From NCBI GenBank assembly GCA_016191345.1, contig JACPOU010000029.1, forward strand, positions 62,001 through 126,000: DNA of 64,000 nucleotides, read 5' to 3'. This stretch comes from Chloroflexota bacterium. GTDB lineage: Bacteria > Chloroflexota > Limnocylindria > Limnocylindrales > CSP1-4. Position numbers and translations under genes: made by a program. The notes under the pieces were generated by a model. It saw only the letters and a list, made by a program, of their open reading frames with translations. It was not told the DNA's origin and did not search any database. This document shows positions 1,641 to 64,000 of this stretch, in pieces; position 1 is the first letter of the stretch, and every line of letters starts with the position of its first letter.

Positions 1641-1674
1641 GGAGCGAGCGGCCCCGCCGCGGGAGACACACCCG

Positions 1675-6345: not shown

Positions 6346-6557
6346 GGCCTCCCAACCTCTCCTGCGCGAGGTCCTTCAGGATCGCATCCGCACGGCCTTT
6401 GCGGCACGTCGATTCGACGAAGAAGCCACAGCGGCACGACCCCACTGGTCAAATGGGTCGCTGCAGTCAGCTCCGAGTCCATCGAGATCCGGCGTTCGGA
6501 GCCCGTCCCTCGTCCTGCCCAGCGTGACGATTGTCCGGATCACCCTGCCGGATCCGC

Positions 6558-6974: not shown

Positions 6975-7258
6975 CGGTCTGGGCGGGGTTTCGTCTCGTC
7001 TGCGTCACCGCCTCGAAGAGCGTCATCGGCGATCTCGGCGAGGATCTGCTCGGCGCGCTCGGCGAACGGTTGCCCATCGCCCTGGAGCCAGCCAACCCAG
7101 CCTGGCAGGGGAAGCGGCTTCAGGTCGCGTTCTCGCTCCGCCACATAGCGCTCCATCGCTTCGCGGACGAGTTGAGCGGTCGCGACGCCATCCCGGTGAG
7201 CCAGGTCCTCGATCAGTCCGTATGTTGCCGTGTCCACGGTCGTCGTGATTCGCTTCAT
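6971..7258 (-). CDS. Ribbon-helix-helix antitoxin, VapB-like
   Basis: A 95-residue protein. The N-terminal beta strand RITTTVD followed by two helices (TYGLIEDLAHRDGVATAQLVREAMERYVAE) is a ribbon-helix-helix DNA-binding domain. The C-terminal part (LPGWVGWLQGDGQPFAERAEQILAEI) is the likely toxin-binding tail. Start ATG 7258 is chosen because the RHH strand begins there; the frame stays open further upstream but is non-family. A perfect 26-bp palindrome lies 5 bases upstream of the ATG and is the obvious autoregulatory operator. The gene overlaps the PIN toxin by four bases. Confidence 0.87.
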   Translation of the reverse strand: MKRITTTVDTATYGLIEDLAHRDGVATAQLVREAMERYVAERERDLKPLPLPGWVGWLQGDGQPFAERAEQILAEIADDALRGGDADETKPRPDR

Positions 7259-7263
7259 GGGGA

Positions 7264-7289
7264 TGATGGTGCTGCATGCAGCACCATCA
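7264..7289. promoter_or_regulatory. Perfect 26-bp palindrome, predicted antitoxin operator
   Basis: The left half TGATGGTGCTGCA is followed directly by its exact reverse complement TGCAGCACCATCA. It ends 5 bases upstream of the antitoxin ATG (7258) and lies in the divergent gap before the ArsR-like gene at 7391. On the minus strand TTGACT (7294-7289) could be the -35 element, so bound antitoxin would cover the promoter. RHH antitoxins commonly bind such palindromes as dimer pairs. Confidence 0.8.
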
Positions 7290-7390
7290 GTCAAGCGCTG
7301 GCCTCGGCCATCGCCAAGGATCCACGGGCCGATCTCGATGATCGCGAGCTCGCCGGTGACAGCCCGTGCGGACCGTGGAATACTCGAACC

Positions 7391-7678
7391 ATGGCTCAAG
7401 TGTGTGCCTCGGCGATCGATGCCGACCGGTGCGACGTCGACTGCCTCCGCCCGGACCATGTTCGGCCCCTTCTCGGGCGGAGCCTGGGCGGCGACCGGTC
7501 GCGGCGGGCCCTGGGCATGAGCGTGTCGGCCCTGTCGCAGCAGCTCAGGGCGCTCCGCGCGCGGGGCGCCGTCGATCGCCGCCGGGATGGCCGGATCGCC
7601 TGCGACGGGCTCGTGGATGACCACCTCAGGCGGCTCGTCCTCCACGCCGCCGTCCACGTCGCGGAGGGGCTGACCTGA
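7391..7678 (+). CDS. Short ArsR-family regulator with an apparent internal deletion
   Basis: A 95-residue protein. The N-terminal CDVDCLRPDHV resembles the cysteine-rich start of CadC/ZntR-type ArsR proteins. The second half (GMSVSALSQQLRALRARGAVDRRRDGRIACDGLVDDHLRRLV) is a normal recognition helix, wing and last helix. Between them only PLLGRSLGGDRSRRAL is present, where the family has about 40-45 residues (LADPTRLRILLAL...ELCVCDLA). So the helices before the recognition helix are missing. It ends with a TGATG overlap on the CDF exporter gene, the normal ArsR-exporter arrangement. It may be a decayed repressor or an unusually short one. Confidence 0.65.
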   Translation: MAQVCASAIDADRCDVDCLRPDHVRPLLGRSLGGDRSRRALGMSVSALSQQLRALRARGAVDRRRDGRIACDGLVDDHLRRLVLHAAVHVAEGLT

Positions 7679-8577
7679 TGCCCAACGTCCATTCGGCCGC
7701 CGCGGCTCATCGCAGCCGACTGATCGGGGTCTTCGCACTGACCCTGTCGGTCCTCGTCATCGAGGTCGTCGGCGGGTTGCTGTCGAACAGCCTGGCACTC
7801 CTCGCCGACGCCGGGCACGTCTTCACCGACGTCTTCGGGGTCGGCTTCGCCCTCGCTGCCATCTGGATCGCCGGTCGGGCCGCGACGAGCGAGCGGACCT
7901 TTGGCTTTCTGCGGCTGGAGATCTTCGCCGCGGTCGCGAATGCGATCCTGCTGTTCGGCGTGGCTGCGTTCATCCTGTACGAGGCGCTGCAGCGCGTGTC
8001 GCAGCCGCCCGAGGTGACGTCGGGCCTCATGCTGGTGGTCGCCGTCGTCGGCCTGCTCGCGAACGCGATCTCGCTGTTCCTTCTGCGGGACGCGCAACGC
8101 CACAGCCTGAACATGCGCGGGGCGTACCTGGAAGTGCTGGGCGACCTCGCCGGATCCGTCGCGGTCATCGTGGCCGCCCTGGTCATTGCCATCACCGGCT
8201 GGACGCAGGCCGACGTCGTCGCCTCGGTGGTGATCGCCCTGCTGATCCTGCCGCGGACCTGGGGCCTCCTCCGCGAGGCGCTGGACGTCCTGCTCGAGGC
8301 CACGCCCAAGGGAATCAACCTCGACCACGTTCGAGCGCACATTGTCGAGGCCCCCGGGGTCGTCGATGTCCATGACCTGCACGCATGGACGATCACGAGC
8401 GGGATGCACGTCGTGAGCGCGCACGTGGTCCTCGGCGAGGACGCGAAGCCCGGCGACATCCTGGACCATCTGGGTAGCTGCCTGGCCGACGACTTCGACG
8501 TCAGGCATTCCACCTTCCAGCTGGAGACGCCGGAGCACGTCGCGTGGGAGGCGCGAGCCGAGCAGGCGCAGCTTTGA
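7678..8577 (+). CDS. Cation diffusion facilitator (CzcD/ZitB-like) metal exporter
   Basis: A 299-residue CDF protein with six transmembrane segments and a C-terminal cytoplasmic domain (from about residue 208, with HDLHAWTITSGMHVVSAHV). The transport site is His47/Asp51 (LADAGHVFTD, TM2) with Glu152/Asp156 (AYLEVLGD, TM5). A histidine is common at the Glu152 position, although glutamate also occurs in some CzcD proteins. It should exchange Zn(II), Cd(II) or Co(II) for protons across the inner membrane. It is translationally coupled to the shortened ArsR regulator. Confidence 0.9.
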   Translation: MPNVHSAAAAHRSRLIGVFALTLSVLVIEVVGGLLSNSLALLADAGHVFTDVFGVGFALAAIWIAGRAATSERTFGFLRLEIFAAVANAILLFGVAAFILYEALQRVSQPPEVTSGLMLVVAVVGLLANAISLFLLRDAQRHSLNMRGAYLEVLGDLAGSVAVIVAALVIAITGWTQADVVASVVIALLILPRTWGLLREALDVLLEATPKGINLDHVRAHIVEAPGVVDVHDLHAWTITSGMHVVSAHVVLGEDAKPGDILDHLGSCLADDFDVRHSTFQLETPEHVAWEARAEQAQL

Positions 8578-46827: not shown

Positions 46828-47958
46828 GTGACCCGCGTCGTCGCCATCATCCTGCACGCCGTGCCCGGCCCGGGCGGCGGGCCGCTCGAGCTGGCGTTCG
46901 TTGCGGCGCGGGCACGGAACGCGGACCGGCAGGCGGAGGGCCTCGAGGCAGCGGGCGCACGGGCGCGCGTCGAGGAGGTCCGGCCCGGCGGCGCGGCATT
47001 CGGGACGCGGTTGCGGATGGCGGCCGCGGCGGCACCGGGCGAAGGGATCGTCATCCTCGGCTCCGGGAGCATCCCCCTCGCCACGGCGGCAGACCTGCGC
47101 GATCTCGTGTCGGCCGCGGCCGGCCGGCGATCGCAGCGCCGCGAGGGGGAAGGCGCGGCCGGCCGGCGATCGCCATGCGACGAGCCTGAAGCTCCGGCCG
47201 GCCGGCGATCGCCGCGCCACGAACGGGCGACCGCCCTCACGAACAACCGCTACTCCGCGGACGTCCTCGCGATCCCGGCCGGCTCCGGCCTCGAGGAGCT
47301 GCCCGAGGTCGCGTCTGACAACGCGGTCCCCCGCTGGCTGGCCGATCGGGGCGTGCCGGTGGACGACCTCCGGTCGCGGGCCAGGCTCCAGCTCGACCTC
47401 GACTCGCCGCTCGACGTGGCGATCGCGGGCCTCGACATCGGCCTCGACCAGGCTGACCTGGCTCCGGCACGCGCGAACGCGACCGCAGTTCGATCTGTCG
47501 CGCAGGACCCGCAATCGGAGATCCTCGTGGCAGGCCGCTCCTCGGCGGCCACGATTCGCTGGCTCGAGCGCCACACGGCGAGCCGGACGCGGGCCCTCGT
47601 CGAGGAGCGCGGGTTCCGGACCTCGCGGCCCGGCCAGCGGCCGCCGCGCTCGACCCTCGGCTTCCTGCTGGACCGCGACGGCCCGGACGCCATCGGCACG
47701 CTCCTCGCCGGCCTGTGCGACGCGGCGGTCATCGACACACGCGTGCTCCTGGCGCATCGCCACGGGCCGGACGAAGCCGGCTGGCCGCCGGCGGAGGACC
47801 GCTTCGCGAGCGACCTGCTCCTTGCGGACCGGATCGCCGACCCGTGGCTCCGGGCGCTCACCGCCAGCGCGGCGGCGGCCCGGATCCCGATCCTCCTCGG
47901 CGGCCACACGCTGGTCGGCCCGGGCCTGCCGCGCCTCATCCGTCGCGGCCTCGGATGA
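46828..47958 (+). CDS. Unknown protein, possible nucleotidyltransferase-like fold
   Basis: A 376-residue protein. It begins VVAIILHAVPGPGGGPLELAFVAARARNADRQ, with a later GEGIVILGSGSIPLATAADL. Strands followed by helices suggest an alpha/beta fold like CofC or MobA, but the expected GGxSxRMG signature is absent, so the resemblance is weak. Residues 97-125 hold three AGRRS units made by a 39-bp repeat. LTNNRYSADVLAIP and ILLGGHTLVGPGLPRLIRRG look conserved in style. The start is GTG 46828, apparently leaderless. Its stop overlaps the MidA-like gene (ATGA). Function unknown. Confidence 0.65.
   Translation: MTRVVAIILHAVPGPGGGPLELAFVAARARNADRQAEGLEAAGARARVEEVRPGGAAFGTRLRMAAAAAPGEGIVILGSGSIPLATAADLRDLVSAAAGRRSQRREGEGAAGRRSPCDEPEAPAGRRSPRHERATALTNNRYSADVLAIPAGSGLEELPEVASDNAVPRWLADRGVPVDDLRSRARLQLDLDSPLDVAIAGLDIGLDQADLAPARANATAVRSVAQDPQSEILVAGRSSAATIRWLERHTASRTRALVEERGFRTSRPGQRPPRSTLGFLLDRDGPDAIGTLLAGLCDAAVIDTRVLLAHRHGPDEAGWPPAEDRFASDLLLADRIADPWLRALTASAAAARIPILLGGHTLVGPGLPRLIRRGLG
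47118..47212. repeat. Three copies of a 17-bp core at 39-bp spacing
   Basis: GGCCGGCCGGCGATCGC occurs at 47118-47134, 47157-47173 and 47196-47212, always 39 bases apart and in frame. It encodes AAGRRS, AAGRRS and PAGRRS in the unknown protein. Confidence 0.9.
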
Positions 47959-49636: not shown

Positions 49637-49760
49637 GCCGGCGGGGTGACGGTCGTCCGCGATGGCCTGCGCCTCATGCCCAGTGCGCGTCCTTCCACCC
49701 AGAACATCGTGTTCATCGCGAACGGTGGCCGACGCTGACGCCGTTCGGAGTGAGGTTCGG

Positions 49761-50117
49761 TTGACCGGGATCTGGTACATCGTCGGGTTCGCCTTCGCGG
49801 CCGGGTCATTCGCGTTCGTGACCTTCGGCGCCGCGTGGCTGATCTCGCACCGGAACCGGGGTGACATCCACAAGGGCCTGCCCTACGAATCCGGGATCGA
49901 CACGATGGGCGACACCCACGGCCGGTTCGGGCTGTCGTTCTACATCTACGCCCTGCTGTTCGTGGCCTTCGACATCGAGGTCGTGTTCATCTACCTCTGG
50001 GCGATCATCTTCCGGGACCTGCTCCTCGGCGGGTTCGTGAGCATGCTGGTGTTCGTGGCGATCCTCCTGCTGGGACTCGCCTACGCGTGGCGAAAGGGCG
50101 TCCTGACATGGCGATGA
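49761..50117 (+). CDS. nuoA: NADH-quinone oxidoreductase subunit A (NuoA)
   Basis: A 118-residue membrane subunit with three transmembrane helices. Markers are [44 protein letters not shown], containing the essential acidic stretch FDIE(V) of TM2. Start TTG 49761 has GTGAGG upstream and gives normal family length. GTG 49725 is an alternative. It overlaps nuoB by four bases at the preferred nuoB start. Confidence 0.92.
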
Positions 50118-50878
50118 ATCCCGAGCCGGCCTCCGCCACGGACGGCCTCGGCACCGGTCAGACCGACACGACCGCGATCGCCTCGGACGCGACCGCGAAC
50201 CGACCCTCGGCCCTGGTCGTGCCCGGCTCGAGCGCCGTCACGGCGCCGATCGTCCTCCGCAACGAGTTGTGGGCCGCCGACGACCCGACGGCCTACGACG
50301 GCGGCCGGGCCACCGACATCACCCATCTCGCCGAGGTCGAGGCGTCCGGCCAGATGCGCCGCGACGACGCTCGCTGGTCGGGCATGCTCGAGGTCATCCC
50401 GACGAAGGCGGACTACGTCCTGGACCTCCTCCGGGCGAACAGCCTCTGGCCGCTCCTGTCCGGCCTCGCCTGCTGCGCGATCGAGATGATGAGCGCGGCG
50501 ACCTCGAAGAACGACATGGACCGCTGGGGCATGTTCCCGTTCCGCGCCTCGCCGCGGCAGGCGGACGTCCTCATCGTCGCCGGCACGCTGACGACGAAGA
50601 TGGCCGGCCCGCTGGTCCGCCTCTGGGAGCAGATGCCGGAGCCCAAGTGGGTCGTCGCCATGGGCGACTGCACCTGCTCGGGCGGCCGCTACAAGCGGAG
50701 CTACAGCACGGTCGAGGGCATCGACCGGGTGATGCCGGTCGACGTCTACGTTCCCGGCTGCCCCCCGCGTCCCGAAGGCCTGATCTACGGGATGATGAAG
50801 CTCCAGCAGCTCGTCAAGGATCGCCGCGGCCACTGGCCGGATCGCGCCGTGGGCCCCACCGTGCCGGCGGGAGTCTAG
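50114..50878 (+). CDS. nuoB: NADH-quinone oxidoreductase subunit B (NuoB), long N-terminus
   Basis: A 254-residue subunit that holds cluster N2, the electron donor to quinone. The ligands are Cys120-Cys121 (LACCAIEMM), Cys186 (MGDCTCSGG) and Cys216 (PGCPPRPEG), all present. The first 85 residues are an Ala/Thr-rich addition, longer than most NuoB. ATG 50114 is chosen for the ATGA overlap with nuoA; ATG 50108 is possible. Confidence 0.94.
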
Positions 50879-50881
50879 GGG

Positions 50882-51427
50882 GTGGATCGAGCGCTCAAGG
50901 CCCGCCTCGAGGCCAGGTTCGGCGACGTCCTGTCCGGACCGATTCGCCAGCGCCACGACGAGACGGAGCTCCGCATCGAGCCGAAGGACGTGCCGGACGT
51001 GCTCCGATCGCTCCACGACGAGCCGGCCTTCCACTTCGAGATGCTGTCCGACCTGGCCGGCGTCGATACCGGCGAGCACATGCAGGTCGTCTACCACCTC
51101 TGGAGCGAGACGACCCCGGACTGGCTCCGGGTCGTCGCCGACGGCCTCTCCCGGGAGGACCCGCGCACGCCGTCCGTGACCTTCCTCTGGAAGGGCGCGG
51201 AGTGGATGGAGCGCGAGGCCTACGACATGTTCGGCATCATCTTCGAGGGCAACCGCGACCTGCGGCGGATCTACATGCCGCCCGACTACCAGAGCTTCCC
51301 GCTGCGGAAGGACTTCTACCTCGCCGATGACGCGGCCCGATCGCCGGGCGCCGGCGTCCGGCACATGGAGCGGAGCCACGCCCCCAACGACACCGCGGGC
51401 CAGGCCGTCCGGACGGTGAAGGCATGA
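50882..51427 (+). CDS. nuoC: NADH-quinone oxidoreductase subunit C (NuoC)
   Basis: A 181-residue 30-kDa subunit with the signature EWMEREAYDMFGIIFEGNRDLRRIYMPPDYQSFPLRKDFYL. It belongs to the Q-module with NuoB/D. It starts with GTG 50882 after a TAGGGGG run and overlaps nuoD by ATGA. Confidence 0.95.
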   Translation: MDRALKARLEARFGDVLSGPIRQRHDETELRIEPKDVPDVLRSLHDEPAFHFEMLSDLAGVDTGEHMQVVYHLWSETTPDWLRVVADGLSREDPRTPSVTFLWKGAEWMEREAYDMFGIIFEGNRDLRRIYMPPDYQSFPLRKDFYLADDAARSPGAGVRHMERSHAPNDTAGQAVRTVKA

Positions 51428-52641
51428 CGCTCACCGGCGAGCGCTCCCAGGATGATCCGCGCGTCGTCCTCGACCGCGAGATCGGGGTCTTCGAGCCCGT
51501 TCCGCCGTACCCGCCCCGCACCGAGCGGGAAGCCGAGTTCTACACGCTCGGCGACGGCCAGATGCTCCTCAACATGGGCCCCCAGCACCCGTCCACCCAC
51601 GGCGTCCTGCGGGTCGTCCTGAAGCTCGACGGCGAGAAGGTCGTGGACCTGGACCCGGTCCTCGGCTACCTCCATCGCGGCGTCGAGAAGCTCTGCGAGA
51701 ACGCCGACTACCACCAGGTCATCAGCCAGGTGGACCCGCTCGAGTACATCAGCTCGCTCTTCTGCGAGTGGTCGCCGGTCATGGCCTTCGAGAAGCTCCT
51801 CGATGTCGAGGTGCCGCGCCGGGCCGAGTACATCCGGGTCCTCTCGGGCGAGCTGAACCGGATCGCCAGCCATGCCCTGTTCATGGGCTGGTTCGCGCTC
51901 GACCTCGGCGGGCTCACACCGATCCTCTGGTCGTTCATCGAACGCGACGAGATCGTCGAGATGCTCGCCGCGCTGACGGGCCAGCGGATGCTCTTCAACT
52001 ACTTCCGGATCGGCGGCGTCAACGGTGACCTGAACCACGAGTTCATGAGCCGTCTCGGCGACTGGATGAGCCGGGCGACGGGGCAGATCGAGGCCAATCT
52101 CACGCTCCTCAACGAGAACGAGATCTTCGTCCGCCGGGCCCGCGGCCTCGGTGCCATCGACACCGCGACGGCGCTCCGCCAGGTCATGACCGGCCCGAAC
52201 CTCCGGGCGACCGGCGTGCCGTTCGACATCCGCCGGGCGCATCCGTACTCGGCCTACCCGGAGCTCGATTTCGACATCCCGACCCGATCGGAGGGCGACT
52301 CGCTCGCCCGCTACCTGCTCCGGATGGACGAGATCAAGCAGAGCCTCCGGATCATCGACCAGTGCCTCCACCAGATGCCGGACGGGCCGATCCTGGCCAA
52401 GCTGCCGCGGCTGCTTCGCCCCCGCCCCGGCCGGGCCTACGCCGCGATCGAGGGACCGCGCGGGCAGTACTCGACGTATGCGATCAGCGACGGGACGGAC
52501 CAGCCCTTCCGGATGCGGATCCACGACCCGAGCTTCATCCACCTCCAGTCGGTGGGGCTCCTCATGCGCGGCGACCTCATCGCCGACTGCATGGCGATCA
52601 TGGCCTCCCTCGATCCGATCATGGGCGGGGTCGACAAGTGA
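51424..52641 (+). CDS. nuoD: NADH-quinone oxidoreductase subunit D (NuoD)
   Basis: A 405-residue 49-kDa subunit forming the quinone site with NuoB. Conserved blocks: MGPQHPSTHGVLR (quinone His), LGYLHRGVEKL, QVDPLEYISSL, FDIRRAHPYSAY and the end DPIMGGVDK. The probable target arginine region for MidA-type methylation is present in LHRGVEKL and neighbouring parts, but the exact residue cannot be fixed by eye. A 163-base gap with the dispersed repeat follows. Confidence 0.96.
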   Translation: MTLTGERSQDDPRVVLDREIGVFEPVPPYPPRTEREAEFYTLGDGQMLLNMGPQHPSTHGVLRVVLKLDGEKVVDLDPVLGYLHRGVEKLCENADYHQVISQVDPLEYISSLFCEWSPVMAFEKLLDVEVPRRAEYIRVLSGELNRIASHALFMGWFALDLGGLTPILWSFIERDEIVEMLAALTGQRMLFNYFRIGGVNGDLNHEFMSRLGDWMSRATGQIEANLTLLNENEIFVRRARGLGAIDTATALRQVMTGPNLRATGVPFDIRRAHPYSAYPELDFDIPTRSEGDSLARYLLRMDEIKQSLRIIDQCLHQMPDGPILAKLPRLLRPRPGRAYAAIEGPRGQYSTYAISDGTDQPFRMRIHDPSFIHLQSVGLLMRGDLIADCMAIMASLDPIMGGVDK

Positions 52642-52804: not shown

Positions 52805-54142
52805 ATGACCGCGGTGGGCCGGACCTGGAACCGGCTGACGCTGCCGGGCAAGATCGTCTTCACGGTCGTGCCGCTGCTCGTCGTGCTGACGGCCGGGCTC
52901 ATCGCCACGATCGTCATCCTCGGCGGCCCGATCGTGGACCTCCTCGCCGCGAACATCGGCATCGTCCGGTTCGCCGCGGCCGCGACGATCATCCTCCTGA
53001 TCACCATCCCGGTGGCGTTCCTGAACATCTTCCTGGAGATGAAGGTCATCGCCCTGATGAACCTCCGGATCGGGCCGGACCGGGTGGGACCGTGGGGCAC
53101 GCTCCTGTCCGTCGTCCACGGGCTCAAGGTCCTCATGAAGGAGGACTTCACCCCCACCGGCGCGGATTCCGTGGTCTTCACCTGGGCGCCGGTCGTGACC
53201 TACGCCGCGGCGGTGATGACCCTCCTCGTCATCCCCTTTGCCCCCGGGCTCTACGGCCAGGACTTCAACATCGGCCTCCTCTACTTCTTCGCGGTCGGCG
53301 GGATGGGCGTCGTGGGCCTGCTCATGGGCGGCTGGTCCAGCTTCAACAAGTACTCCCTGCTCGGCGGGCTCCGGTCGGCGGCCCAGATCGTCAGTTACGA
53401 GATCCCGCTGACGCTGTCGGTGGTGGGCCTGCTGATCCTCGCCGGCACGATGAGCCTCAACCAGATCGTCCAGCAGCAGTCCGGCTGGTTCACCGACTGG
53501 TACGTCATCCGCCAGCCGCTCGGCTTCGTGATCTTCTTCATCGCCGCGACCGCGGAGGGCAACCGGACCCCGTTCGACCTGTCCGAGGCGGACTCGGAGA
53601 TCGTCGCCGGCTTCGCGACGGAGTATTCCGGGATGCGCTTCGGGTTCTTCTTCTTCGCCGAGTACGTGAACGTGTTCATCCTCTCGGCGCTCGCGTCGGT
53701 CCTCTTCTTCGGCGGCTGGAACGCGCCGTTCCCGTTCCCGGACATCGCCCTGAACCTGGATCCGGCGAGCGTCGGCATCCCGCTCCTCTTCATCGTCGCC
53801 CTGGTGCCGCTCATCGGGACGCTCGTGCTGGCCGCCCCGTTCTACCTGCTCCGCAGCTCGATGCGCTGGTGGGTCGCGCTGATCATCGGCTTCGTCCTCT
53901 TCAACGTCGTCGCCGGCGGCCTCCTCTTCGCCTGGGCGTACGTGAGCTTCGACTGGGTGGCCGGCCTCATCTGGTTCGTCCTCAAGACGTTCACCTTCGT
54001 CTTCATCTTCGTCTGGATGCGCGGCACGCTGCCCCGGGTCCGGATCGACCAGCTCATGGGCTTCGCCTGGAAGTGGCTGCTGCCGGCGGCTCTCCTGAAC
54101 CTGTTCGTCACCGCCGCCGCGGTCCTCGTGGTGGGCTCATGA
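52805..54142 (+). CDS. nuoH: NADH-quinone oxidoreductase subunit H (NuoH)
   Basis: A 445-residue membrane subunit with about nine transmembrane segments, linking the peripheral and membrane arms. Markers: LEMKVIALMNLRIGPDRVGPWG, GWSSFNKYSLLGGLRSAAQIVSYE, TAEGNRTPFDLSEADSEIVAGF and EYSGMRFGFFFFAEY. The charged quinone-channel residues are in place. ATG 52805 is chosen for the family start; the dispersed repeat is upstream. It overlaps the next gene by ATGA. Confidence 0.95.
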   Translation: MTAVGRTWNRLTLPGKIVFTVVPLLVVLTAGLIATIVILGGPIVDLLAANIGIVRFAAAATIILLITIPVAFLNIFLEMKVIALMNLRIGPDRVGPWGTLLSVVHGLKVLMKEDFTPTGADSVVFTWAPVVTYAAAVMTLLVIPFAPGLYGQDFNIGLLYFFAVGGMGVVGLLMGGWSSFNKYSLLGGLRSAAQIVSYEIPLTLSVVGLLILAGTMSLNQIVQQQSGWFTDWYVIRQPLGFVIFFIAATAEGNRTPFDLSEADSEIVAGFATEYSGMRFGFFFFAEYVNVFILSALASVLFFGGWNAPFPFPDIALNLDPASVGIPLLFIVALVPLIGTLVLAAPFYLLRSSMRWWVALIIGFVLFNVVAGGLLFAWAYVSFDWVAGLIWFVLKTFTFVFIFVWMRGTLPRVRIDQLMGFAWKWLLPAALLNLFVTAAAVLVVGS

Positions 54143-54804
54143 GCTTCGTCCCCGGCATCGGCCTCGTGAAGGGCATGGCGCTCACGCTGCGCCGCTTCTT
54201 CGAGCCCAAGGCCACGATCCGCTACCCCGAGGTCGAGGCGGACGTCCCCCCGAAGTTCCGCGGCCGACTGCAGCTCCTCTACGACGAGTACGGCACGCTC
54301 AAGTGCGAGACGTGCTTCCAGTGCGCCCAGGCCTGCCCGATCGAGTGCATCGACATGGGCGGCATGGACACGAAGGGCCGCTTCCACGTCCACTGGGGCC
54401 CGCCCGAGACGTACGGCGAGCGGCGCGAGGAATCCGCGCTCCGGCGCTCCGGCCGGACGGTGCCGGATCCCCGCTATGCCCACTTCGAGGGCGTGGACCT
54501 GACCGCCCTCGAGGCGATCCTTGCGGAGTTCGACCACGACCCGGAGCGGATGCTCGAGATCCTGGAGGCGACGCAGGCCGTCTACGGCTATCTCCCGGTC
54601 GCCGCGCTGAAGCAGATCAGCCAGGCCACCGGCGCCTGGTACGCGATGATCTACGGGACCGCGTCCTACTACCGCCACCTCCGCTTCGAGCCGGCGTCGA
54701 ACGAGCAGCAGGCGGCCGCGATGGACGCCCGGCGGCCCCTCGAGTCGGCGTACGTGGCGGGCCTCGATGCCGCCCTCGGCGGCCGGCCCGGCGGCGACGC
54801 ATGA
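54139..54804 (+). CDS. NuoI/NuoE chimera: one-cluster ferredoxin part joined to NuoE helical domain
   Basis: A 221-residue protein in the NuoI position. Residues 1-70 resemble the start of NuoI (GMALTLRRFFEPKATIRYPE, PPKFRGRLQLLYDEYGTLKC) with one [4Fe-4S] motif, Cys56-x2-Cys59-x2-Cys62-x3-Cys66-Pro. The second NuoI motif is absent. After a linker (HVHWGPPETYGERREE), residues about 120-187 match the helical N-terminal part of NuoE (MLEILEATQAVYGYLPVAALKQISQATG, YGTASYYRHLRF). NuoE's thioredoxin-like [2Fe-2S] domain is missing, and the protein ends in an Ala/Gly tail. It is coupled by ATGA to nuoH and nuoF. Confidence 0.8.
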   Translation: MSFVPGIGLVKGMALTLRRFFEPKATIRYPEVEADVPPKFRGRLQLLYDEYGTLKCETCFQCAQACPIECIDMGGMDTKGRFHVHWGPPETYGERREESALRRSGRTVPDPRYAHFEGVDLTALEAILAEFDHDPERMLEILEATQAVYGYLPVAALKQISQATGAWYAMIYGTASYYRHLRFEPASNEQQAAAMDARRPLESAYVAGLDAALGGRPGGDA

Positions 54805-56180
54805 CCGACATCGCCAGGCTCGAGACGCCGAAGGGCTGGCCGTCGATCCTCCTGCCCCCGGCGGGCAAGGGGGCGGCCAGGGGCACGGGCACGGGCACGG
54901 GCGATGCCGCGCGGGGTGCGGGCGGCGATGCCTCGGATCTCGACGCGGCCATGAAGGCCGGCGCCTGGGAGGGGCTGCGTCGGGCGATCCGCGACCTCGG
55001 GCCTACCGGGACCATCGCCGCGATCGGCTCGTCCGGCCTGCGGGGCCGCGGCGGCGCCGGGTTCCCCGCCGCGGACAAGTGGCGCGCGGCCGCCTCGGCG
55101 CCGGGCCCGCGCGTCGTCGTCGCAAACGGCTACGGCGCGGACCCGTCGAGCCGGACGGACCAGCTCCTCCTCGAGACGAACCCGTACGCGGTGCTCGAGG
55201 GACTTGCGATCGTGGCCCTCGCGATCGGCGCCGAGGAGGCGATCGTCGCGGTCCGCGCCACCGCGGGGAGCACGATCCGGATCCTCGAGGCCGCCATCGC
55301 CGCGGCCTGGGACGCCGGCTTCGCGGGCACCGACGCCCTGGGTTCCGGCCACTTCCTGGACCTCAGGCTCCAGACCGTCCAGGGTGCCTACCTGCTCGGC
55401 GAGGAGACCATCCTCCTGAAGGCCCTCGAGGGCAAGCGGGGCCAGCCCCAGCAGCGCCCGCCGCATCCGGCCACGAACGGGCTCCGCGGCCGGCCGACGG
55501 TCGTCCACAACGTCCAGACGCTCGCCGCCATCCCGTGGATCGTCGTCAACGGGCCTGCCGCGTTCGCGACGACCGGCGTTCCGGAGGCCCCGGGCACGAT
55601 CCTCGTCGAGGTCCGCGGAGCGGAGCGCTCCGGCGTCGCCGAGGTCCCGCTCGGCACGTCGCTCCGCGAGATCGCCGGGCTCGGCGGCAAGTCCGGCGGC
55701 CGCGCGCTGAAGGCCGTCCTCGTCGGCGGGCCGTCGGGCGGGATCCTGCCGCCCGAGCTCCTCGACACGCCGTACACGTTCGATGCCCTGCGCGCCGCCG
55801 GTGCCCACGTCGGCTCGGGCTCGGTGATCGTCGCGGACGAGCGCGCCTGCATCGTCGACCTCGCCCGGGTCCTGACCCGCTTCTGCGCGGACGAGGCCTG
55901 CGGCAAGACGATCCCCTGCCGGATCGGCACCCGCCGGCTCTCGGAGATCGGCGACCGTCTTGCCACCGGGACGTCCCGGGCCGGCGACCTCGACCTGATG
56001 GCCGACCTGGCGTCCGATATCGTCGGCTCCGCGCTCTGCGACCACGAGCGCCTGGCGACCCTCCCGCTGATGAGCGGGATGCGATACTTCCGAACGGAGC
56101 TCGACGAGCATCTCGAGCGCAGCTCCTGCCCCGCGGGCGTCTGTCATCCGATCGCGATGGCAGCGAGCGCGACGCATTGA
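54801..56180 (+). CDS. NuoF-like subunit with altered NADH/FMN loop and incomplete [4Fe-4S] motif
   Basis: A 459-residue NuoF homologue. Retained parts: RGRGGAGFPAADKW (FMN), GAYLLGEETILLKALEGKRG, the SLBB-type GGPSGGILPPELLDTPY and GSVIVADERACIVD. Altered parts: the NADExEPGxFKDR loop is ANGYGADPSSRTDQ, and the ESCGKCxPCREG motif is EACGKTIPCRIG, so the second ligand is Thr370. Cys367, Cys373 and Cys413 remain, and Cys363 lies nearby. NADH oxidation in the classical way is doubtful. It lies between the chimera and the NfnB-like fusion and is coupled by ATGA upstream. Confidence 0.85.
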   Translation: MTDIARLETPKGWPSILLPPAGKGAARGTGTGTGDAARGAGGDASDLDAAMKAGAWEGLRRAIRDLGPTGTIAAIGSSGLRGRGGAGFPAADKWRAAASAPGPRVVVANGYGADPSSRTDQLLLETNPYAVLEGLAIVALAIGAEEAIVAVRATAGSTIRILEAAIAAAWDAGFAGTDALGSGHFLDLRLQTVQGAYLLGEETILLKALEGKRGQPQQRPPHPATNGLRGRPTVVHNVQTLAAIPWIVVNGPAAFATTGVPEAPGTILVEVRGAERSGVAEVPLGTSLREIAGLGGKSGGRALKAVLVGGPSGGILPPELLDTPYTFDALRAAGAHVGSGSVIVADERACIVDLARVLTRFCADEACGKTIPCRIGTRRLSEIGDRLATGTSRAGDLDLMADLASDIVGSALCDHERLATLPLMSGMRYFRTELDEHLERSSCPAGVCHPIAMAASATH

Positions 56181-56190
56181 GGCCCCGACC

Positions 56191-58839
56191 TTGGCTGACC
56201 TGATCACGCGCCCAGACAACCGGCCGGACATGCCGATCGTGCAGGACACGACCACGGTCCGGGAGGACACGCTCGCCGAGCGGCTCCTGACCACCCAGGC
56301 GCCGCAGCGGCCGCAGTCCACGCCGGTCATCCGGATCGAGGTCGACGGGCGTGTCGTCGAGGGCTTCGAGGGCCAGACGATCCTCGAGGTCTGCCGGGAC
56401 AACGGGATCGAGATCCCGACCCTGTGTTACGAGCCCAAGCTGCCCGGCTTCGGGGCCTGCCGGATGTGCGTCGTCGAGGTCGAGGGCGAGGAGCACCCGC
56501 AGATCAGCTGCACCCGGTCCTGCGACGACGGGATGAAGGTCCAGACCCAGACCGAGGAGGTCCGGCGCCTCCGCCGGACGAACCTGGAGCTGATCTTCAG
56601 CGACCACAACGCCTACTGCCTGCCGCCCTGCCAGAACAAGTGCCCCAGCCACATCGACATCCCGGGCTTCCTCAAGCAGAACGCCGAGGGCAACTGGCGC
56701 GAATCCACCCGGATCTTCAAGCGGACGATCCCCTTCCCGTCGGTCCTCGGCCGCGTCTGCCCCGCCCCGTGCGAGGACCACTGCCGCCGCGACGAGGTGG
56801 ACGAGGCGATCGCGATCCGCGACAGCCACCGCTATGCCGGCGACCAGGTCCTGAAGGCGATGCTCGACGATGGGCTGGACCCGCCCGTCCCGTTCGAGGT
56901 CCAGCCGGCCACGGGTCGCAGGGCGGCCGTCATCGGCTCCGGCCCGGCCGGCATGGCCGCCGCCTACTACCTGCTCCTCTCCGGGCACGACGTGACGGTC
57001 TTCGAGCGCGACCCCGCCCCGGGCGGGATGCTCCGCTACGGGATCCCGCAGTACCGGCTGCACAAGGTGGAGGTCCTCGAGGCCGAGTACGAATCCGTCA
57101 CCCGCCTCGGGGGCAGGATCGTCTGCAACCAGGCCCTCGGCCGCGACTTCACGCTCGATGACCTCCAGTTCCAGGGCTTCGATTCGGTCCTCGTCGCGAT
57201 CGGCTGCTACGACACGAACAAGCTCGGCGTGCCGGGCGAGGACGCGGCCGAGGTCCTCGACGGGCTCGAGTACCTGCGGACCGCCACGCTCGGCCTGCCG
57301 TACCCGGACCATGCCGGCAAGCGGGTCATCGTCATCGGCGGCGGCTTCACCTCGATGGACTGCTCGCGAACCTCCGTCCGCCAGGGCGCGAAGGAAGTGA
57401 CGCTCGTCTATCGCCGCGACATGAAGGACATGCCCGCGTCGGGCGAGGTCCACGAGGCGATCGAGGAAGGCGTCACGGCGATCTTCCAGGCCGGCCCGAC
57501 GCGGGTCATCACGGACGCGAAGGGCAATGTCACCGGCGTCGAGTTCATCCGGATGGCGCTGGGCGCCCCGGATGCGTCCGGCCGTCGCCGCCCCGAGCCG
57601 GCCCCCGGCACCGAGTTCACGATCCCCTGCGACCGTGTCCTGCTCGCGATCGGCCAGGGCCCGGAGCTGGACTGGATCGGACCGGGGTCCGCGGGTCCCA
57701 CGGCGACGAGGAACAAGCGCCTCCAGGCGGACGCGGTGACGTTCGAGACCGCGCGTCCCGGCGTGTTCGCCACCGGCGACGTGCGGATCGGCGCGGCGAC
57801 CGTCGTCCAGGCCATCGCCGAGGGCCGGCGCGCGGCCTACGCCGTCGATGCGTTCCTGCGCGGCCACGACATGGCGTCGATCAAGACCCGCCAGACGCTC
57901 GCCGAGCCGCAGCCGGAGTTCCTCTCGATCGTCCCCTTCACGGCCGAGGTCAAGGAGCCGCGCTACCGCCTCAAGGCCCTGGAGGCCGAGGAGCGCAACC
58001 GGAACTACGTCGAGTACGAGATCCCGTACTCCACGGCGGAGGCCGTCGCGGAATCGACGCGCTGCCTCCAGTGCACCTGCGAGGCGATCGGGTTCTGCGA
58101 CCTGCGCCGGCTCGGGATCGAGTACCAGACGACGCTCCCGACGCTCGAGCCCCAGTTCCACCAGGGCGCGGGGTACCGGAGCGTCACCGAGAACCGCTTC
58201 ACCGGCATCAACCACGACTACATCCGGGACGATTCCCACGCCTTCATCCTCCGGGAGCCGTCGCGCTGCATCGACTGCGGCCGCTGCGCGACCGTCTGCG
58301 CCGAGGTCGTCGGGGCGGCCTGCTACGACTTCATGCGAATCGGCTTCGACACCCTCGTGACGACGCCACTCGACATGAGCCTCAACGACACGCCCTGCGT
58401 CTCCTGCGGGCGGTGCGCCGAGACGTGCCCCACGGGCGCGCTCATGCCGAAGCCGCGGGTCCTGGAGAAGTACGAGGTCGACGAGTCCCGCTGCATCCTC
58501 TGCGGCATCTGCGTCGACGCCTGCCCCTACGACGCCCTCCGCGACGGCGGCGAGTTCGAGCTCTCCCACGTGAGCCGCGAGGCCCCGATGATCGACCTCA
58601 TGGCCCTCGCCGCGGTCGATCGCGAGACCGAGGTCACCTACATCCGCAAGGAGCGCGACTGGCTCCAGCGGGCCGCCGACGAGGGTCGGTTCGTCGATCG
58701 CGGGCGGCTCCTCCCGATGCTGCCGGCGGGCCTCGCCGCGGCGAACGCCGGGAACGGCAACGGCGGCTCCGCGCTCACGACGACCGGTCACGGCCACGAT
58801 CACGGCGGCGCGGGTGGGACCCACGCCAACGCGAGGTAG
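56191..58839 (+). CDS. NuoG-like [2Fe-2S] domain fused to GltD/NfnB-type FAD-NAD(P)H oxidoreductase and ferredoxin domains
   Basis: An 882-residue fusion. Residues 45-125: NuoG-type [2Fe-2S] ferredoxin (Cys79, 90, 93, 107). Residues 130-230: GltD-type cysteine region (Cys143, 147, 151; Cys190, 194, 198). Residues 240-590: FAD site VIGSGPAGMAAAYY, PGGMLRYGIPQYRL, NAD(P)H site VIVIGGGFTSMDC with VYRRD, and GVFATGDVRIGAATVVQAI. After residue 620: a CxxCxC motif (Cys625), then four-Cys motifs at 693-703, 736-746 and 768-778. The molybdopterin-fold half of NuoG is absent. It probably takes electrons from NAD(P)H and passes them along clusters to NuoB. Confidence 0.85.
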   Translation: MADLITRPDNRPDMPIVQDTTTVREDTLAERLLTTQAPQRPQSTPVIRIEVDGRVVEGFEGQTILEVCRDNGIEIPTLCYEPKLPGFGACRMCVVEVEGEEHPQISCTRSCDDGMKVQTQTEEVRRLRRTNLELIFSDHNAYCLPPCQNKCPSHIDIPGFLKQNAEGNWRESTRIFKRTIPFPSVLGRVCPAPCEDHCRRDEVDEAIAIRDSHRYAGDQVLKAMLDDGLDPPVPFEVQPATGRRAAVIGSGPAGMAAAYYLLLSGHDVTVFERDPAPGGMLRYGIPQYRLHKVEVLEAEYESVTRLGGRIVCNQALGRDFTLDDLQFQGFDSVLVAIGCYDTNKLGVPGEDAAEVLDGLEYLRTATLGLPYPDHAGKRVIVIGGGFTSMDCSRTSVRQGAKEVTLVYRRDMKDMPASGEVHEAIEEGVTAIFQAGPTRVITDAKGNVTGVEFIRMALGAPDASGRRRPEPAPGTEFTIPCDRVLLAIGQGPELDWIGPGSAGPTATRNKRLQADAVTFETARPGVFATGDVRIGAATVVQAIAEGRRAAYAVDAFLRGHDMASIKTRQTLAEPQPEFLSIVPFTAEVKEPRYRLKALEAEERNRNYVEYEIPYSTAEAVAESTRCLQCTCEAIGFCDLRRLGIEYQTTLPTLEPQFHQGAGYRSVTENRFTGINHDYIRDDSHAFILREPSRCIDCGRCATVCAEVVGAACYDFMRIGFDTLVTTPLDMSLNDTPCVSCGRCAETCPTGALMPKPRVLEKYEVDESRCILCGICVDACPYDALRDGGEFELSHVSREAPMIDLMALAAVDRETEVTYIRKERDWLQRAADEGRFVDRGRLLPMLPAGLAAANAGNGNGGSALTTTGHGHDHGGAGGTHANAR

Positions 58840-58846
58840 GCCGCTG

Positions 58847-59434
58847 ATGCGCGCCTGGCTCTACCTGCTCGCGGCGGCCATCGCCGGCGCGATCATCACG
58901 ACCCCGGCGATCCTCGTCTTCCTGCTCGGCGGCGGCTCCACCGACGACGCCCTCTTCGCGTCGCTGGCCACGCTGCTGCTCGTCTCGGCGATCGCCGTCG
59001 TGACGATGCGCGACATCATCCGCTGCGGCCTGGCCATGATCGTCTCGTTCCTGTCCCTGGCCGGCATCTACGTCGTCGTCGGGGCGCCCCTCGTCGCGGC
59101 CGCGCAGGTCATCGTCTACATCGGCGCGATCAGCGTCCTGATCCTCTTCGCGATCATGCTGACCCAGTCGAAGGCGGGGCCCTCGAAGCTCGTCTTCCAG
59201 ACCCAGGCGGCGCCGGCGGCCGTGGCGGCCATCGTCCTCGCGGTGCTCATCGCGCTCGGGGTCGCCTCGACGGACTGGGGCGAGGTCGGCCAGCGGGCCC
59301 GGCTGGCCACCGATGCCCTGGCGCGCCTCCTGTTCGACGCATACGTCCTGCCCTTCGAGATCGTGAGCGTCCTGCTCCTCGCGGCGGTGATCGGCGGCGT
59401 GTTCATCGCCAAGCGCGAGGAGGGCGCCAGCTGA
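58847..59434 (+). CDS. nuoJ: NADH-quinone oxidoreductase subunit J (NuoJ)
   Basis: A 195-residue membrane subunit with five to six hydrophobic segments. The conserved TM3 area is [30 protein letters not shown] 58847 is chosen over 58834-type upstream options because the membrane segment begins there. Its TGA and the nuoK ATG share one base. Confidence 0.93.
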
Positions 59435-59745
59435 TGGCCGATTCTCTCGACGCCTACCTCGTCGTCTCCGGCATGCTCTTCGCGATCGGCTCCTTCGGGT
59501 TCCTGGCCCGGCGGAACGCGATCAGCATGCTGATGTCGATCGAGCTGATGCTCAACGCGGTCAACCTCGCGATCGTCGCGTTCGGGGCCTTCATCCCCAG
59601 GCTCAACGGCGACGGCTCGGTCATCGCCCTCATGGTCATGGCCGTCGCCGCGGCCGAGGCCACGGTCGGCCTCGCGATCGTCATCGCGATCTACCGGAAC
59701 CGGAAGACCCCGCTCGTCGACGAGTACGACGCGATGCGGCGATGA
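59434..59745 (+). CDS. nuoK: NADH-quinone oxidoreductase subunit K (NuoK)
   Basis: A 103-residue three-helix subunit. The two membrane glutamates of the proton path lie in [18 protein letters not shown] and [19 protein letters not shown]. It overlaps nuoL by ATGA. Confidence 0.95.
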
Positions 59746-61733
59746 TCGACACCCTCATCCCGCTCATCGCGGCCCTGCCGCTCGCGGGATTCCTCGTGAC
59801 CGCCGCGATCGGGCGGCGGCTCGGCAGGCAGGCCCACTGGATCCCGGTCGCCGCGGTCGCCCTGGCCTGGGCCGCGTCGATGATCGTCGTCGTGACCGCG
59901 CTCACCGGCGGCGCGCCGTTCGGCGAGGGCGGTCACAGCGTCAGGCTCTGGGACTGGATCCCGGCCGGCAGGCTCCGGGTCGAGGCAGCCTTCTTCGTCG
60001 ACAACCTGACCGCCGTCCTGCTCATCGTCGTCATGTCGGTCGGTCTCCTCGTCCACGTCTACTCGATCGGCTACATGCGCCATGACCCCGGCTACTGGCG
60101 CTTCTTCGCCTACCTGAACCTCTTCATGTTCTCGATGCTGCTCCTCGTCCTCGGTGACAGCTGGCTGACGATGTTCGTCGCCTGGGAGCTGGTGGGCCTG
60201 TCCAGCTACCTCCTCATCGGCTTCTGGTACCGGAAGCGGTCCGCCGCCCTCGCGAGCAAGAAGGCCTTCATCGTCAACCGCGTCGGCGACGTGGGGTTCG
60301 CGCTCGGGATCATGGCGATCTGGGTGAACACCGGGACGCTGAACATCCAGGAATCGCTGCGTCTCATGACGAGCGAGACCCTGACCGCCTTCCCGATCCC
60401 GCTCGGCCTCGTCGCACTCCTCGTCTTCGCCGGAGCGATGGGCAAGAGCGCCCAGTTCCCGCTCCACGTGTGGCTGCCGGACGCGATGGAGGGCCCCACG
60501 CCGGTCTCCGCCCTGATCCACGCCGCGACGATGGTCAACGCCGGCGTCTACCTCGTCGCGCGGGCCAATCCGCTCTTCGCAACGGCGCCCGAGGCGATGG
60601 TCATCGTGGCTGCGATCGGCATCTTCACGGCGATCCTCGCGGCCTCGATCGCGATGACCCAGACCGACATCAAGCGGGTCCTGGCCTATTCGACGCTCAG
60701 CCAGCTGGGCTACATGTTCGCGGCGCTGGGCGTCGGCGCGTGGACCGCGGCGATCTTCCACCTCATGGCCCAGGGATTCACCAAGGGCCTCCTGTTCCTC
60801 GCCTCCGGTTCGGTCATCCACGCCGTCCACGACGAGCAGGACATGCGGAAGATGGGGGGCCTCCGGCGCAAGATTCCGCATACCTACCGGACGATGCTCA
60901 TCGGGGCCATCGGGATGGCCGGGATCCCGCCCCTCGCCGGCTTCTTCAGCAAGGACGAGATCATCGGGGAGGCCTTCAAGCTCGGATTCCAGTGGGTCTG
61001 GGCGATCGGCGTCGTCGTCGCGATCATGACCGCGTTCTACATGTTCCGGCTCATCGGCCTGACGTTCTGGGGTGAGAGCCGGGTGGACCCGGCAGTCGAA
61101 CCGACGGTCCACGAATCGCCACCGGTCATGACCGCGCCGCTCTGGCTCCTCGCGATTCCATCCATCCTCCTCGGCCTGGTCCTCGCCTGGCCGGGGCCGC
61201 CGATCGGGCCGCTGTTCGGGCTGCCGGGCCCGGGCCTCCTCGCGGGCTGGCTCGAGCCGGTCTTCAGGAGCGGACGGGAGATCCTGGGTGAACGCGAGAG
61301 CGCGTTTGCGCTCTTCGGCATCGACGGCGCCCTCATCGCCGCGAGCGTGGCGGTGGCGGTCATCGGCATGGTCGTCGCGTGGCGGCTCTTCGGGGTCGAG
61401 ATCGGGCCGCTCCGCGGCCGCGGCAAGCCGGAGCTCGTCCGGCAGCTCACCGCGCGCGTGCCGTTCCTCTACCGCGCCTCGCTCAACAAGTGGTGGTTCG
61501 ATGACCTCAACCACCTTCTGTTCATGGTCATCGGCGGCCGGATCGCCGGCGTCCTGTGGTGGTTCGATACCCGCGTCGTCGACGGCATCGTGAACGGCAT
61601 CGGGGCGGTCACCCGGCGGAGTGGCGGCGGCCTGGCTCGCGTCCAGACGGGCCGGGTCCAGAACTACGCCCTCGGCATCGCGTTCGGGCTCATCGTCATG
61701 GTCGGGTCGTACCTCATGATCGCGGGCCGCTAG
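59742..61733 (+). CDS. nuoL: NADH-quinone oxidoreductase subunit L (NuoL)
   Basis: A 663-residue antiporter-like subunit with about 16 membrane segments and the lateral helix at the end. Markers: [18 protein letters not shown] (essential Glu), [53 protein letters not shown], and [21 protein letters not shown]-type block. It pumps protons at the distal membrane arm. Confidence 0.96.
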
Positions 61734-61736: not shown

Positions 61737-63425
61737 ATGGCCAACCTGCCGATCCTGTCGATCGTCACCTTTCTGCCGCTCGCCGGGGCGCTCCTCGTCG
61801 GGCTCCTGCCGGCCCGCTATGCCCGGCCCGTCGCCCTCGGAACGGCCCTCCTGGCCTGGGTCGCCTCGCTTCTCCTCGTCATCGGCTTCTCGACGAGCCG
61901 CGGCGGGCTCTTCCAGTTCGTCGAGGAGGTGAGCTGGATCCCGAGCTTCGGCATCGAATACAAGCTCGGGGTCGACGGGCTGTCGCTTGTCCTCGTTCTT
62001 CTGACGACGACGCTGACGTGGATCAGCATCCTGGCGAGCTTCAGGCCGATCCAGACCCGGATCAAGGAGTACATGGTCGCCTTCCTCGTCCTCGAGGTCG
62101 GGATGATCGGCGTGTTCCTGGCCCTCAACTCCTTCCTCTTCTACATCTTCTGGGAGATCGTCCTCGTCCCGATGTACCTGATCATCGGGATCTGGGGCGG
62201 AGCGAACCGGATCTACGCCACGATCAAGTTCGTCCTCTACACCCTGGTCGGGTCGCTCCTCATGCTCGTCGCGATCCTCGCGACCGCCTTCGCGTTCCAG
62301 GCGGCCAACGGCGGCAGCTGGGCCGGCGCCTTCGACTTCCAGGTCCTCCGCGAGTACGCGACGCAGGGCGGCGGCTTCGACCCGACGCTCCAGCTCCTCG
62401 CCTTCGGGGCGTTCTTCCTCGCCTTCGCGATCAAGGTCCCGATGTTCCCCTTCCACACCTGGCTGCCGGACGCCCACGTCGAGGCGCCGACCGCGGGCTC
62501 CGTGATCCTGGCCGCGGTGATGCTGAAGCTGGGTGCCTACGGCTTCATCCGCTGGACGCTGTCGCTCTACCCGGACGCGGCCCACACGTACGCGCCGCTG
62601 ATCATCGTCCTGAGCCTGATCGGGATCATCTACGGCGCGATCGTCGCCCTCGTCCAGCCGGACCTCAAGAAGCTCGTGGCCTACTCGTCCGTCTCGCACA
62701 TGGGCTTCGTCACGCTCGGGATCTTCGTCTTCCAGCCGCAGGCCATGGAGGGCGCGATCCTCCAGATGATCAACCACGGGCTGATCACGGGCGCCCTCTT
62801 CCTCCTCGTCGGCGTGATCTACGAGCGGACCCACGACCGGACGATCGCGAAGATGGGCGGCCTCGCCGGCCGGACCCCGGTCTACATCGCGATCTTCGGG
62901 TTCTTCGTCTTCGCCTCCGCCGGCCTGCCGGGCCTGTCCGGGTTCGTCGGCGAGTTCCTGACCCTGATCGGGACGTTCGCGGCGAATCCATGGGCCGCCG
63001 TGGTCGCGACGTTGGTCATGATCTTCGCCGCGGGCTACCTCCTGTGGATGTTCCAGCGGGTCGCGACCGGCGAGCTCTCGGGGTTCCTGTCGGGGCTCGG
63101 CAGCCGCCTCACGGACATCAGCCCGGTCGAGATCCTGACCCTCGCCCCGCTCGCCGCGCTCGTGGTCGCGTTCGGCCTCTTCCCGGGCCTGCTCCTCGAC
63201 ACGATCGCCGGCAGCGTCGACGCTTCGCTCGCCGACGCGTCCGCGGGCTCTGCCATCGCCGTCGATCCGCTCGTGGTGGCCGCCGGGCTCGGGATCGTCG
63301 CGGCCGCGATCGTCGTCCGGATCCTGACCCTGCCGGCGGGGAGCCGGACGTCCACCACGGCGCCGACGACGCCCGCGGACGGCACGCCCGCCGGCGAGAC
63401 GGCCGCCCCGGGGAGCGCTGCATGA
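61737..63425 (+). CDS. nuoM: NADH-quinone oxidoreductase subunit M (NuoM)
   Basis: A 562-residue antiporter-like subunit. Markers: FWEIVLVPMYLIIGIWGG (essential Glu), KVPMFPFHTWLPDAHVEAPT, DLKKLVAYSSVSHMGFV and MINHGLITGALFLLVGVIYERT. The C-terminal 40 residues are a Thr/Ala/Pro tail. It begins three bases after nuoL and overlaps nuoN by ATGA. Confidence 0.96.
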   Translation: MANLPILSIVTFLPLAGALLVGLLPARYARPVALGTALLAWVASLLLVIGFSTSRGGLFQFVEEVSWIPSFGIEYKLGVDGLSLVLVLLTTTLTWISILASFRPIQTRIKEYMVAFLVLEVGMIGVFLALNSFLFYIFWEIVLVPMYLIIGIWGGANRIYATIKFVLYTLVGSLLMLVAILATAFAFQAANGGSWAGAFDFQVLREYATQGGGFDPTLQLLAFGAFFLAFAIKVPMFPFHTWLPDAHVEAPTAGSVILAAVMLKLGAYGFIRWTLSLYPDAAHTYAPLIIVLSLIGIIYGAIVALVQPDLKKLVAYSSVSHMGFVTLGIFVFQPQAMEGAILQMINHGLITGALFLLVGVIYERTHDRTIAKMGGLAGRTPVYIAIFGFFVFASAGLPGLSGFVGEFLTLIGTFAANPWAAVVATLVMIFAAGYLLWMFQRVATGELSGFLSGLGSRLTDISPVEILTLAPLAALVVAFGLFPGLLLDTIAGSVDASLADASAGSAIAVDPLVVAAGLGIVAAAIVVRILTLPAGSRTSTTAPTTPADGTPAGETAAPGSAA

Positions 63426-64000
63426 CCTGGTCCGACCTCGTCACCAGCGCACCGCTGGTCGTGGCCATCCTCGTCGCCGGTGCCGTGGTCGTCGCCGACA
63501 TCGTCCGGCCCGGGCGGAGCGGGCCCGTCCTGGCGGTCAGCCTGGCCGGCCTCGCGCTCGTGTTCGGCCTGACGATCGTGACCGGGGCGACGCCCGCAAC
63601 CGCGTTCGGTGGCGCCTACACCGTCGACGCCCTGACGACGTTCCTCGACGGACTCTTCGTCCTGATCGTCGTCTTCACGCTCGTCTTCGCCCCGGACTAC
63701 CTCGCGCCACGCGGCCTGCCGCTCGCGGAGTTCGCGATGGTCCTGCTCTTCGCCATGACCGGGGCGATGCTCATCGCCGCCTCGGCGGACCTCCTCGTCC
63801 TCTTCATCGGCCTCGAGCTCATGGTCCTGCCGGGCTACCTCCTCGCCGGCTACCACAAGTCGGACGGCTTCTCGACCGAGGGCGCGATCAAGTACTTCCT
63901 CCTCGGCTCGTTCAGCTCGGCGATCTTCCTCTTCGGCCTCGCCTTCGTGTGGGGCCTGACCGGGACGACGCGGGTCGCCGAGGTCGCCGATGCGCTCTCG
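63422..64000 (+). CDS. nuoN: NADH-quinone oxidoreductase subunit N (NuoN), 3' end outside window
   Basis: The first 193 codons are visible and open to the edge. Markers are FIGLELMVLPGYLLAGYHKS (essential Glu) and EGAIKYFLLGSFSSAIFLFG, both typical of NuoN. The ATGA overlap with nuoM fixes the start. It should complete the proton-pumping arm. Confidence 0.93.
   Translation, partial: MTWSDLVTSAPLVVAILVAGAVVVADIVRPGRSGPVLAVSLAGLALVFGLTIVTGATPATAFGGAYTVDALTTFLDGLFVLIVVFTLVFAPDYLAPRGLPLAEFAMVLLFAMTGAMLIAASADLLVLFIGLELMVLPGYLLAGYHKSDGFSTEGAIKYFLLGSFSSAIFLFGLAFVWGLTGTTRVAEVADALS

Follow-up and report, generated by a model that had tools for sequence, protein, structure and literature searches.

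What feeds electrons into a complex I whose operon carries no normal-type nuoE, nuoF, nuoG or nuoI? This question is raised by a 64,000-nucleotide stretch of DNA (hereafter the window) from a Chloroflexota bacterium of the order Limnocylindrales (assembly GCA_016191345.1, contig JACPOU010000029.1, positions 62,001 to 126,000), which holds a tightly packed, co-directional complex I operon of 13 genes in the order nuoA-B-C-D-H-P1-P2-P3-J-K-L-M-N. Complex I is usually treated as an enzyme fed by NADH, ferredoxin or F420, with one conserved wire. The original prediction, made from the sequence, held that the three coupled genes that we name P1, P2 and P3 stand in for nuoE/F/G/I as a rebuilt input arm, and this is borne out: all three are intact open frames, with 4-bp overlaps between nuoH and P1 and between P1 and P2, and a spacing of 10 bp between P2 and P3. 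We consider it probable that the operon encodes a proton-pumping complex I of 13 polypeptides whose input arm has been replaced, where NADPH (less likely NADH) enters at the FAD of P3, and where P2 and a remnant of NuoE act as scaffold. The three genes and their parts are the following, in window positions.

54139..54804, + strand: P1, chimera of the NuoI first half and the NuoE helical part (profiles, alignments)
54163..54372, + strand: P1, NuoI first half, motif CETCFQCAQAC (C56, C59, C62, C66; profile, alignment)
54487..54699, + strand: P1, helical domain resembling NuoE, without [2Fe-2S] cysteines; the thioredoxin-like domain is gone
54801..56180, + strand: P2, NuoF/HydB-core-like protein (profiles, alignments)
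55125..55163, + strand: P2, altered FMN/NADH motif NGYGADPSSRTDQ (usual NADE..P....DR)
55899..55919, + strand: P2, N3 motif CGKTIPC, second ligand lost
56191..58839, + strand: P3, NfnA-like flavoprotein of the Stn/NfnABC type with the NuoI second half at its end; TTG start
56326..56553, + strand: P3, NuoG/HydA-type [2Fe-2S] domain (C79, C90, C93, C107)
56599..56853, + strand: P3, His-Cys3 motif (H139, C143, C147, C151) and Fer4_20 cysteines C190, C194, C198
56899..57870, + strand: P3, GltD/NfnB-like FAD and NAD(P)H domain (GSGPAG, GGGFTS, YRR)
58246..58446, + strand: P3, NuoG/HydA-like 2x[4Fe-4S] dicluster
58456..58590, + strand: P3, NuoI second half, motif CILCGICVDAC (C768, C771, C774, C778)

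NuoI, which in canonical complex I is a separate protein with two CxxCxxCxxxCP motifs, is present here only as halves inside P1 and P3, the N-terminal helix of NuoI included. By Pfam and NCBIfam profiles, P1 covers NuoI positions 1-65 of 121, followed by the N-terminal part of NuoE without its cluster cysteines, in agreement with the earlier description of a one-cluster NuoI joined to a truncated NuoE; the tail of the window's P3 covers NuoI positions 71-113. Even though P1 alone reaches only about 42 bits against NuoI chains, over the first half, joining its residues 1-80 to the P3 tail gives an end-to-end match to the plant mitochondrial NuoI (7ar7_I) at E 5.7e-24 and 88 bits, with all eight motif cysteines in register. 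The proposed division of the NuoI motifs between chimera and fusion was thus right, as was the location of the second motif, whose likeness to NuoI was understated when it was said merely to resemble it. An intact NuoI above the family cut-off was found in none of the 61 genomes of the order and class, where the NuoI matches recur as profile positions 1-65 and 71-117, about 4 kb apart, which correspond to P1 and P3. The four cysteines of the P1 half (C56, C59, C62, C66) are invariant (110/110 sequences). In ordinary 2[4Fe-4S] ferredoxins, the fourth cysteine of each motif ligates the other cluster, and therefore N6a and N6b should form only where the two halves come together. Since NuoI is present only as halves, the existence of N6a and N6b would require P1 and P3 to be part of the complex.

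As foreseen, a NuoG-type [2Fe-2S] head is fused in P3 to a GltD/NfnB-like flavoprotein with further ferredoxin motifs, namely the dicluster and the NuoI part. Its ligands ([2Fe-2S], His-Cys3, GltD-type, dicluster and NuoI half) are invariant in 90 sequences, bar gaps and a few frameshift-like outliers, and it retains the FAD and NAD(P)H motifs as well as YRR and the equivalent of Stn R239. The conservation of these motifs is consistent with the predicted role of the NfnB-like FAD as the electron entry point. P3 matches NfnABC and StnABC by sequence and by fold. In one CSP1-4 assembly (L198, G020; about 3400-3560), a probable assembly indel puts the NuoI half of P3 out of frame.

We infer that the 13 products assemble into one proton-pumping complex, in which the FAD in P3's GltD/NfnB-like domain would oxidise NADPH, perhaps NADH. 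From there, electrons would pass to the Fe-S clusters of P3, probably through the GltD-type [4Fe-4S] pair to the His-Cys3 cluster that corresponds to N5; an entry near N5 is suggested because the His-Cys3 motif of P3 is homologous to the N5 region, although the passages of PMC10482914 used here give this motif no cluster number in Stn. N6a and N6b would come next, on a NuoI fold built from the first half in P1 and the second half in P3, and then N2 in NuoB, with delivery to quinone at NuoB/NuoD driving an ordinary membrane arm. What is left of NuoE in P1 would serve, with P2, as scaffold, their NADH site, and in this order also N3, being no longer needed. The stronger, class-wide form of this proposal, with a NuoI ferredoxin domain made from two polypeptides in which N6a and N6b each have ligands from P1 and P3, NADPH entry through the GltD FAD at the N5 position, bypass of FMN, N3, N1b and N4, and NuoE/NuoF left as scaffold, we hold to be somewhat better than an even bet. 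The canonical subunits on which the rest of this path would run (NuoB, C, D, H, A, J, K, L, M and N) are all present.

49662..50117, + strand: nuoA, homologue of the A gene heading the conserved gene order
50108..50878, + strand: nuoB, four N2 cysteines (CC, C, C) in the sequence, the NuoB family match of its own genome; alternative GTG start at 50087
50882..51427, + strand: nuoC (sequence, gene order)
51424..52641, + strand: nuoD (PF00346, E 4.4e-60 in its own genome)
52805..54142, + strand: nuoH (PF00146, E 2.9e-105)
58847..59434, + strand: nuoJ (sequence, gene order)
59434..59745, + strand: nuoK (sequence, gene order)
59742..61733, + strand: nuoL, key Glu/Lys motifs seen in the sequence
61737..63425, + strand: nuoM (sequence, gene order)
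63422..64000, + strand: nuoN, 5' part, with about 894 bp of the gene lying past the window

Several points weigh against such a path. The preference for NADPH rests on homology, and some GltD relatives use NADH. The GltD-proximal cluster of P3 is uncertain from its residues, with Arg in this order and in the sister family f4, and Leu in most other members, at the position of Stn K170, where Stn has Lys; passages of PMC10482914 report that the Stn K170R variant keeps about 50% of its activity. P2 retains GEET and the glycine loop and may still hold a flavin. In the AlphaFold models, the Fe-S regions of P3, like the NuoI half of P1, fall below pLDDT 50. A fold search with P1 matched the NuoE part only, with nothing below 0.001. 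An unstructured lone NuoI half would fit, as weak evidence, the need for a partner.

The same complex might also work in reverse, quinol and proton-motive force (or ferredoxin) driving the reduction of NADP+ at the FAD of P3. Complex I is reversible in principle, and the GltD domain of Stn/NfnABC is described as reversible with NADP(H) in passages of PMC10482914. However, electron flow from NADPH to menaquinone is downhill, and a proton-translocating PntB transhydrogenase is already encoded in 38 of 41 relatives, where it gives a route between NADH and NADPH and a supply of the latter. We therefore regard the reverse direction as unlikely, and keep NADPH oxidation at P3 as the preferred reading.

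The state of P2 bears on a second alternative. P2 belongs to the NuoF family (E 1.1e-98), yet it scores under the curated cut-off, and it lacks the combination of NADE motif and four-cysteine N3 seen in the NuoF of canonical complex I. Every member has another residue at D94 of the NADE motif. The second N3 cysteine is lost in 83 of 86 members of the order and in all four from the sister family f4, three of the four ligands being kept in the window; outside the order, N3 is intact in 13/13 members from other classes and in 3/3 of the family f3 (formate dehydrogenase and normal NuoF loci being left out of these counts). Thus, of the claim that P2 is a NuoF with degraded NADH/FMN and N3 motifs, the first part stands, whereas the second went too far, with one cysteine lost and N3 intact in outgroup members. 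Moreover, the match of P2 to the NfnB/StnB-type chain is confined to residues 115-526, and the N-terminal [2Fe-2S] domain and the C-terminal ferredoxin domain that HydB/StnB carry (B2-B4) are missing. Because D94 is gone everywhere, the N3 cysteine is lost in most of the order and in f4, and both these extra domains and the NuoE cluster are absent, the old NADH side has lost function in steps while P3 remained the most constrained part (dN/dS 0.13-0.21 for P3 versus 0.16-0.44 for P2).

If P2 were instead a working second flavin site, the complex could confurcate or bifurcate, with NAD(H) used at P2 and NADP(H) at P3, in the manner of Nuo-Bfu or Stn. The retained glycine loop and GEET would favour this, as would the intact N3 outside the order. 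The missing B2-B4 domains, the lack of a NuoE cluster in P1, the replacement of D94 throughout and the broken N3 of this order all speak against it, and we judge it improbable, more so than the reverse direction.

Two observations concern the small-genome family f2 of Limnocylindrales, with genomes of only about 1.1 Mb. In L042 and L053, the thioredoxin-like NuoE domain of P1 is longer and retains remnants of CxC, and in the P2 of genome G037 the glycine-rich flavin loop is lost as well (CHRDGG).

Does this arrangement belong to a system already described? The nearest known ones are Nuo-Bfu and Stn/NfnABC; the features that define each were looked for, and each set is incomplete here. Nuo-Bfu is a complex I predicted in Geobacter, Nitrospirae and others, with BfuABC as its input module; it has 14 subunits (A-N), and an NADP(H)-binding FAD domain is reported for Nfn-Bfu only (PMC9304861). 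As in Nuo-Bfu, NuoEFG give way to a module related to HydABC, whose genes stand midway in the nuo cluster. However, an NfnA/StnC-like GltD fusion takes the place of BfuA, NuoI is split and has no gene of its own, and the counterparts of BfuB and BfuC have lost most clusters. The BfuBC core has six Fe-S clusters, including those of the C-terminal ferredoxin domain of BfuB and of BfuC (PMC9304861); this core is missing here, since P2 spans 115-526 only and P1 has no NuoE cysteines. The suggestion that mixes of NuoE/F-like and NfnB-like parts were not known inside a nuo operon must therefore be narrowed: HydB/C-like modules in nuo operons had already been proposed (Nuo-Bfu, PMC9304861), and it is the combination with the GltD part that had not been described.

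As for StnABC/NfnABC (8oh5, 9bov, 9n5u), residues 46-779 of P3 can be aligned with the first 700 residues of StnC/NfnA at 34-38% identity, P2 resembles the StnB core, and the NuoE-like part of P1 resembles StnA. P3 has the large-subunit composition of Stn/Nfn-Bfu, with [2Fe-2S], GltD-like FAD/NADPH domain and dicluster. In passages of PMC10482914, electrons from NADPH run in Stn from FAD through C7, C6, C5, C4 and C3 to StnB, the FAD being non-bifurcating. Contrary to StnABC/NfnABC, the module here lies within a nuo operon and carries a half NuoI in place of the FdhF-like domain, P2 has no ferredoxin-reducing or [2Fe-2S] domain, and P1 lacks the StnA cluster. A bifurcating StnAB module able to reduce ferredoxin is thus not found, both cluster domains of P2 being absent.

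With the canonical 14-subunit complex I (Nqo1-14), the operon shares the quinone module, the membrane arm, the NuoI fold (from two pieces) and the NuoG-type [2Fe-2S] and dicluster motifs; it differs in having no separate NuoE, F, G or I, in its altered NADH-site residues and in the added FAD/NAD(P)H domain. With the 11-subunit complex I-like enzymes and NDH-1, it shares the lack of a functional NuoEFG-type NADH module, but NuoI is intact in those enzymes and here it is split and fused to a new flavoprotein. No published description of this layout was found in the open-access literature. If the proposal is true, complex I would have an NADPH-type entry through a different flavoprotein and a core subunit cut in two, and the annotation of energy metabolism would change for the Limnocylindrales (Ca. 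Limnocylindrus among them), which are bacteria of soil, groundwater and freshwater. The operon would be a natural test of how far the input arm is exchangeable with the pump kept, and of whether separate chains can build a two-cluster ferredoxin.

The layout is class-wide in genomes, in line with the caution that it might be known in related Chloroflexota. P1-like chimeras were sought in Chloroflexota, in one genome-contig scan (best 80 loci) and in plasmids; P1 was found in 55 of 61 relatives, and tblastn with P1 against plasmids gave no match over most of its length. Conserved synteny, proposed as a check, holds throughout Limnocylindrales: the order A-B-C-D-H-P1-P2-P3-J-K-L-M is invariant and co-directional in 39 loci, the others being contig-end truncations of it. 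Carriers include Chloroflexi CSP1-4, RBG_16_72_14, GWC2_73_18, Ca. Limnocylindrales, Ca. Limnocylindrus and Ca. Aquidulcis. In the sister family f4, from the same class, the operon is also complete. In families f3 and f5, the same 13 genes are divided between two complementary loci, A-C-H-J-K-L-M-N and B-D-P1-P2-P3, and NuoB, NuoD and NuoH are single-copy in the f3 genomes tested. Some other Chloroflexota classes have a B-P1-P2-P3 locus and an A-C-D-H locus; in the two such genomes that were examined closely (G122 and G144), a normal nuo operon accompanies them. These complementary loci are independent evidence that P1-P3 belong to complex I.

They also bear on the idea that P1-P3 are a soluble Stn-like transhydrogenase in its own right, which is only encoded alongside a complex I of the 11-subunit type; the likeness of P3 to the soluble NfnABC/StnABC proteins would point that way. 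These genomes would then have no NuoI whatever, and the NuoI halves, with their N-terminal helix, lie inside P1 and P3, which in split operons co-locate with NuoB or NuoB-D. We consider such a separate enzyme very improbable. Degenerate genes or an assembly artefact, to which the metagenomic origin and contamination described below might point, are refuted by a layout shared by about 110 distinct sequences from many assemblies, a recurrence that excludes chance, and by dN/dS values of 0.13-0.44 for P1-P3, like those of other subunits, which indicate purifying selection; no decay, a possibility raised earlier, was seen in the three open frames.

A second, normal nuo set is absent from the rest of the genome, with no normal nuoEFGI elsewhere and the two halves as the only NuoI pieces, and the N5-type domain of NuoG (PF10588) has no match in it. 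A NuoF-like protein on contig C55 was rejected as a hidden normal NuoEF, given that this NuoE-NuoF fusion adjoins parts of a molybdopterin formate dehydrogenase and FdhD. That region (35-8551) holds genes for an NAD-type formate dehydrogenase: the fusion, with intact NADE and N3 motifs, the parts of the molybdopterin subunit, and FdhD. The assembly is a metagenome-assembled genome with 6.7% contamination, and its contig C38 (1-7403) carries a second nuo cluster with the same rebuilt layout, whose P1-P3 are 84-95% identical to those of genome G059 of another family. Given this identity and the contamination, we rejected it as a paralogue; it is most likely a contaminant. Both nuo clusters are preceded by proteins of unknown function that look alike (window 46828-47958 and contig C38 7940-9151) and may represent a conserved neighbour.

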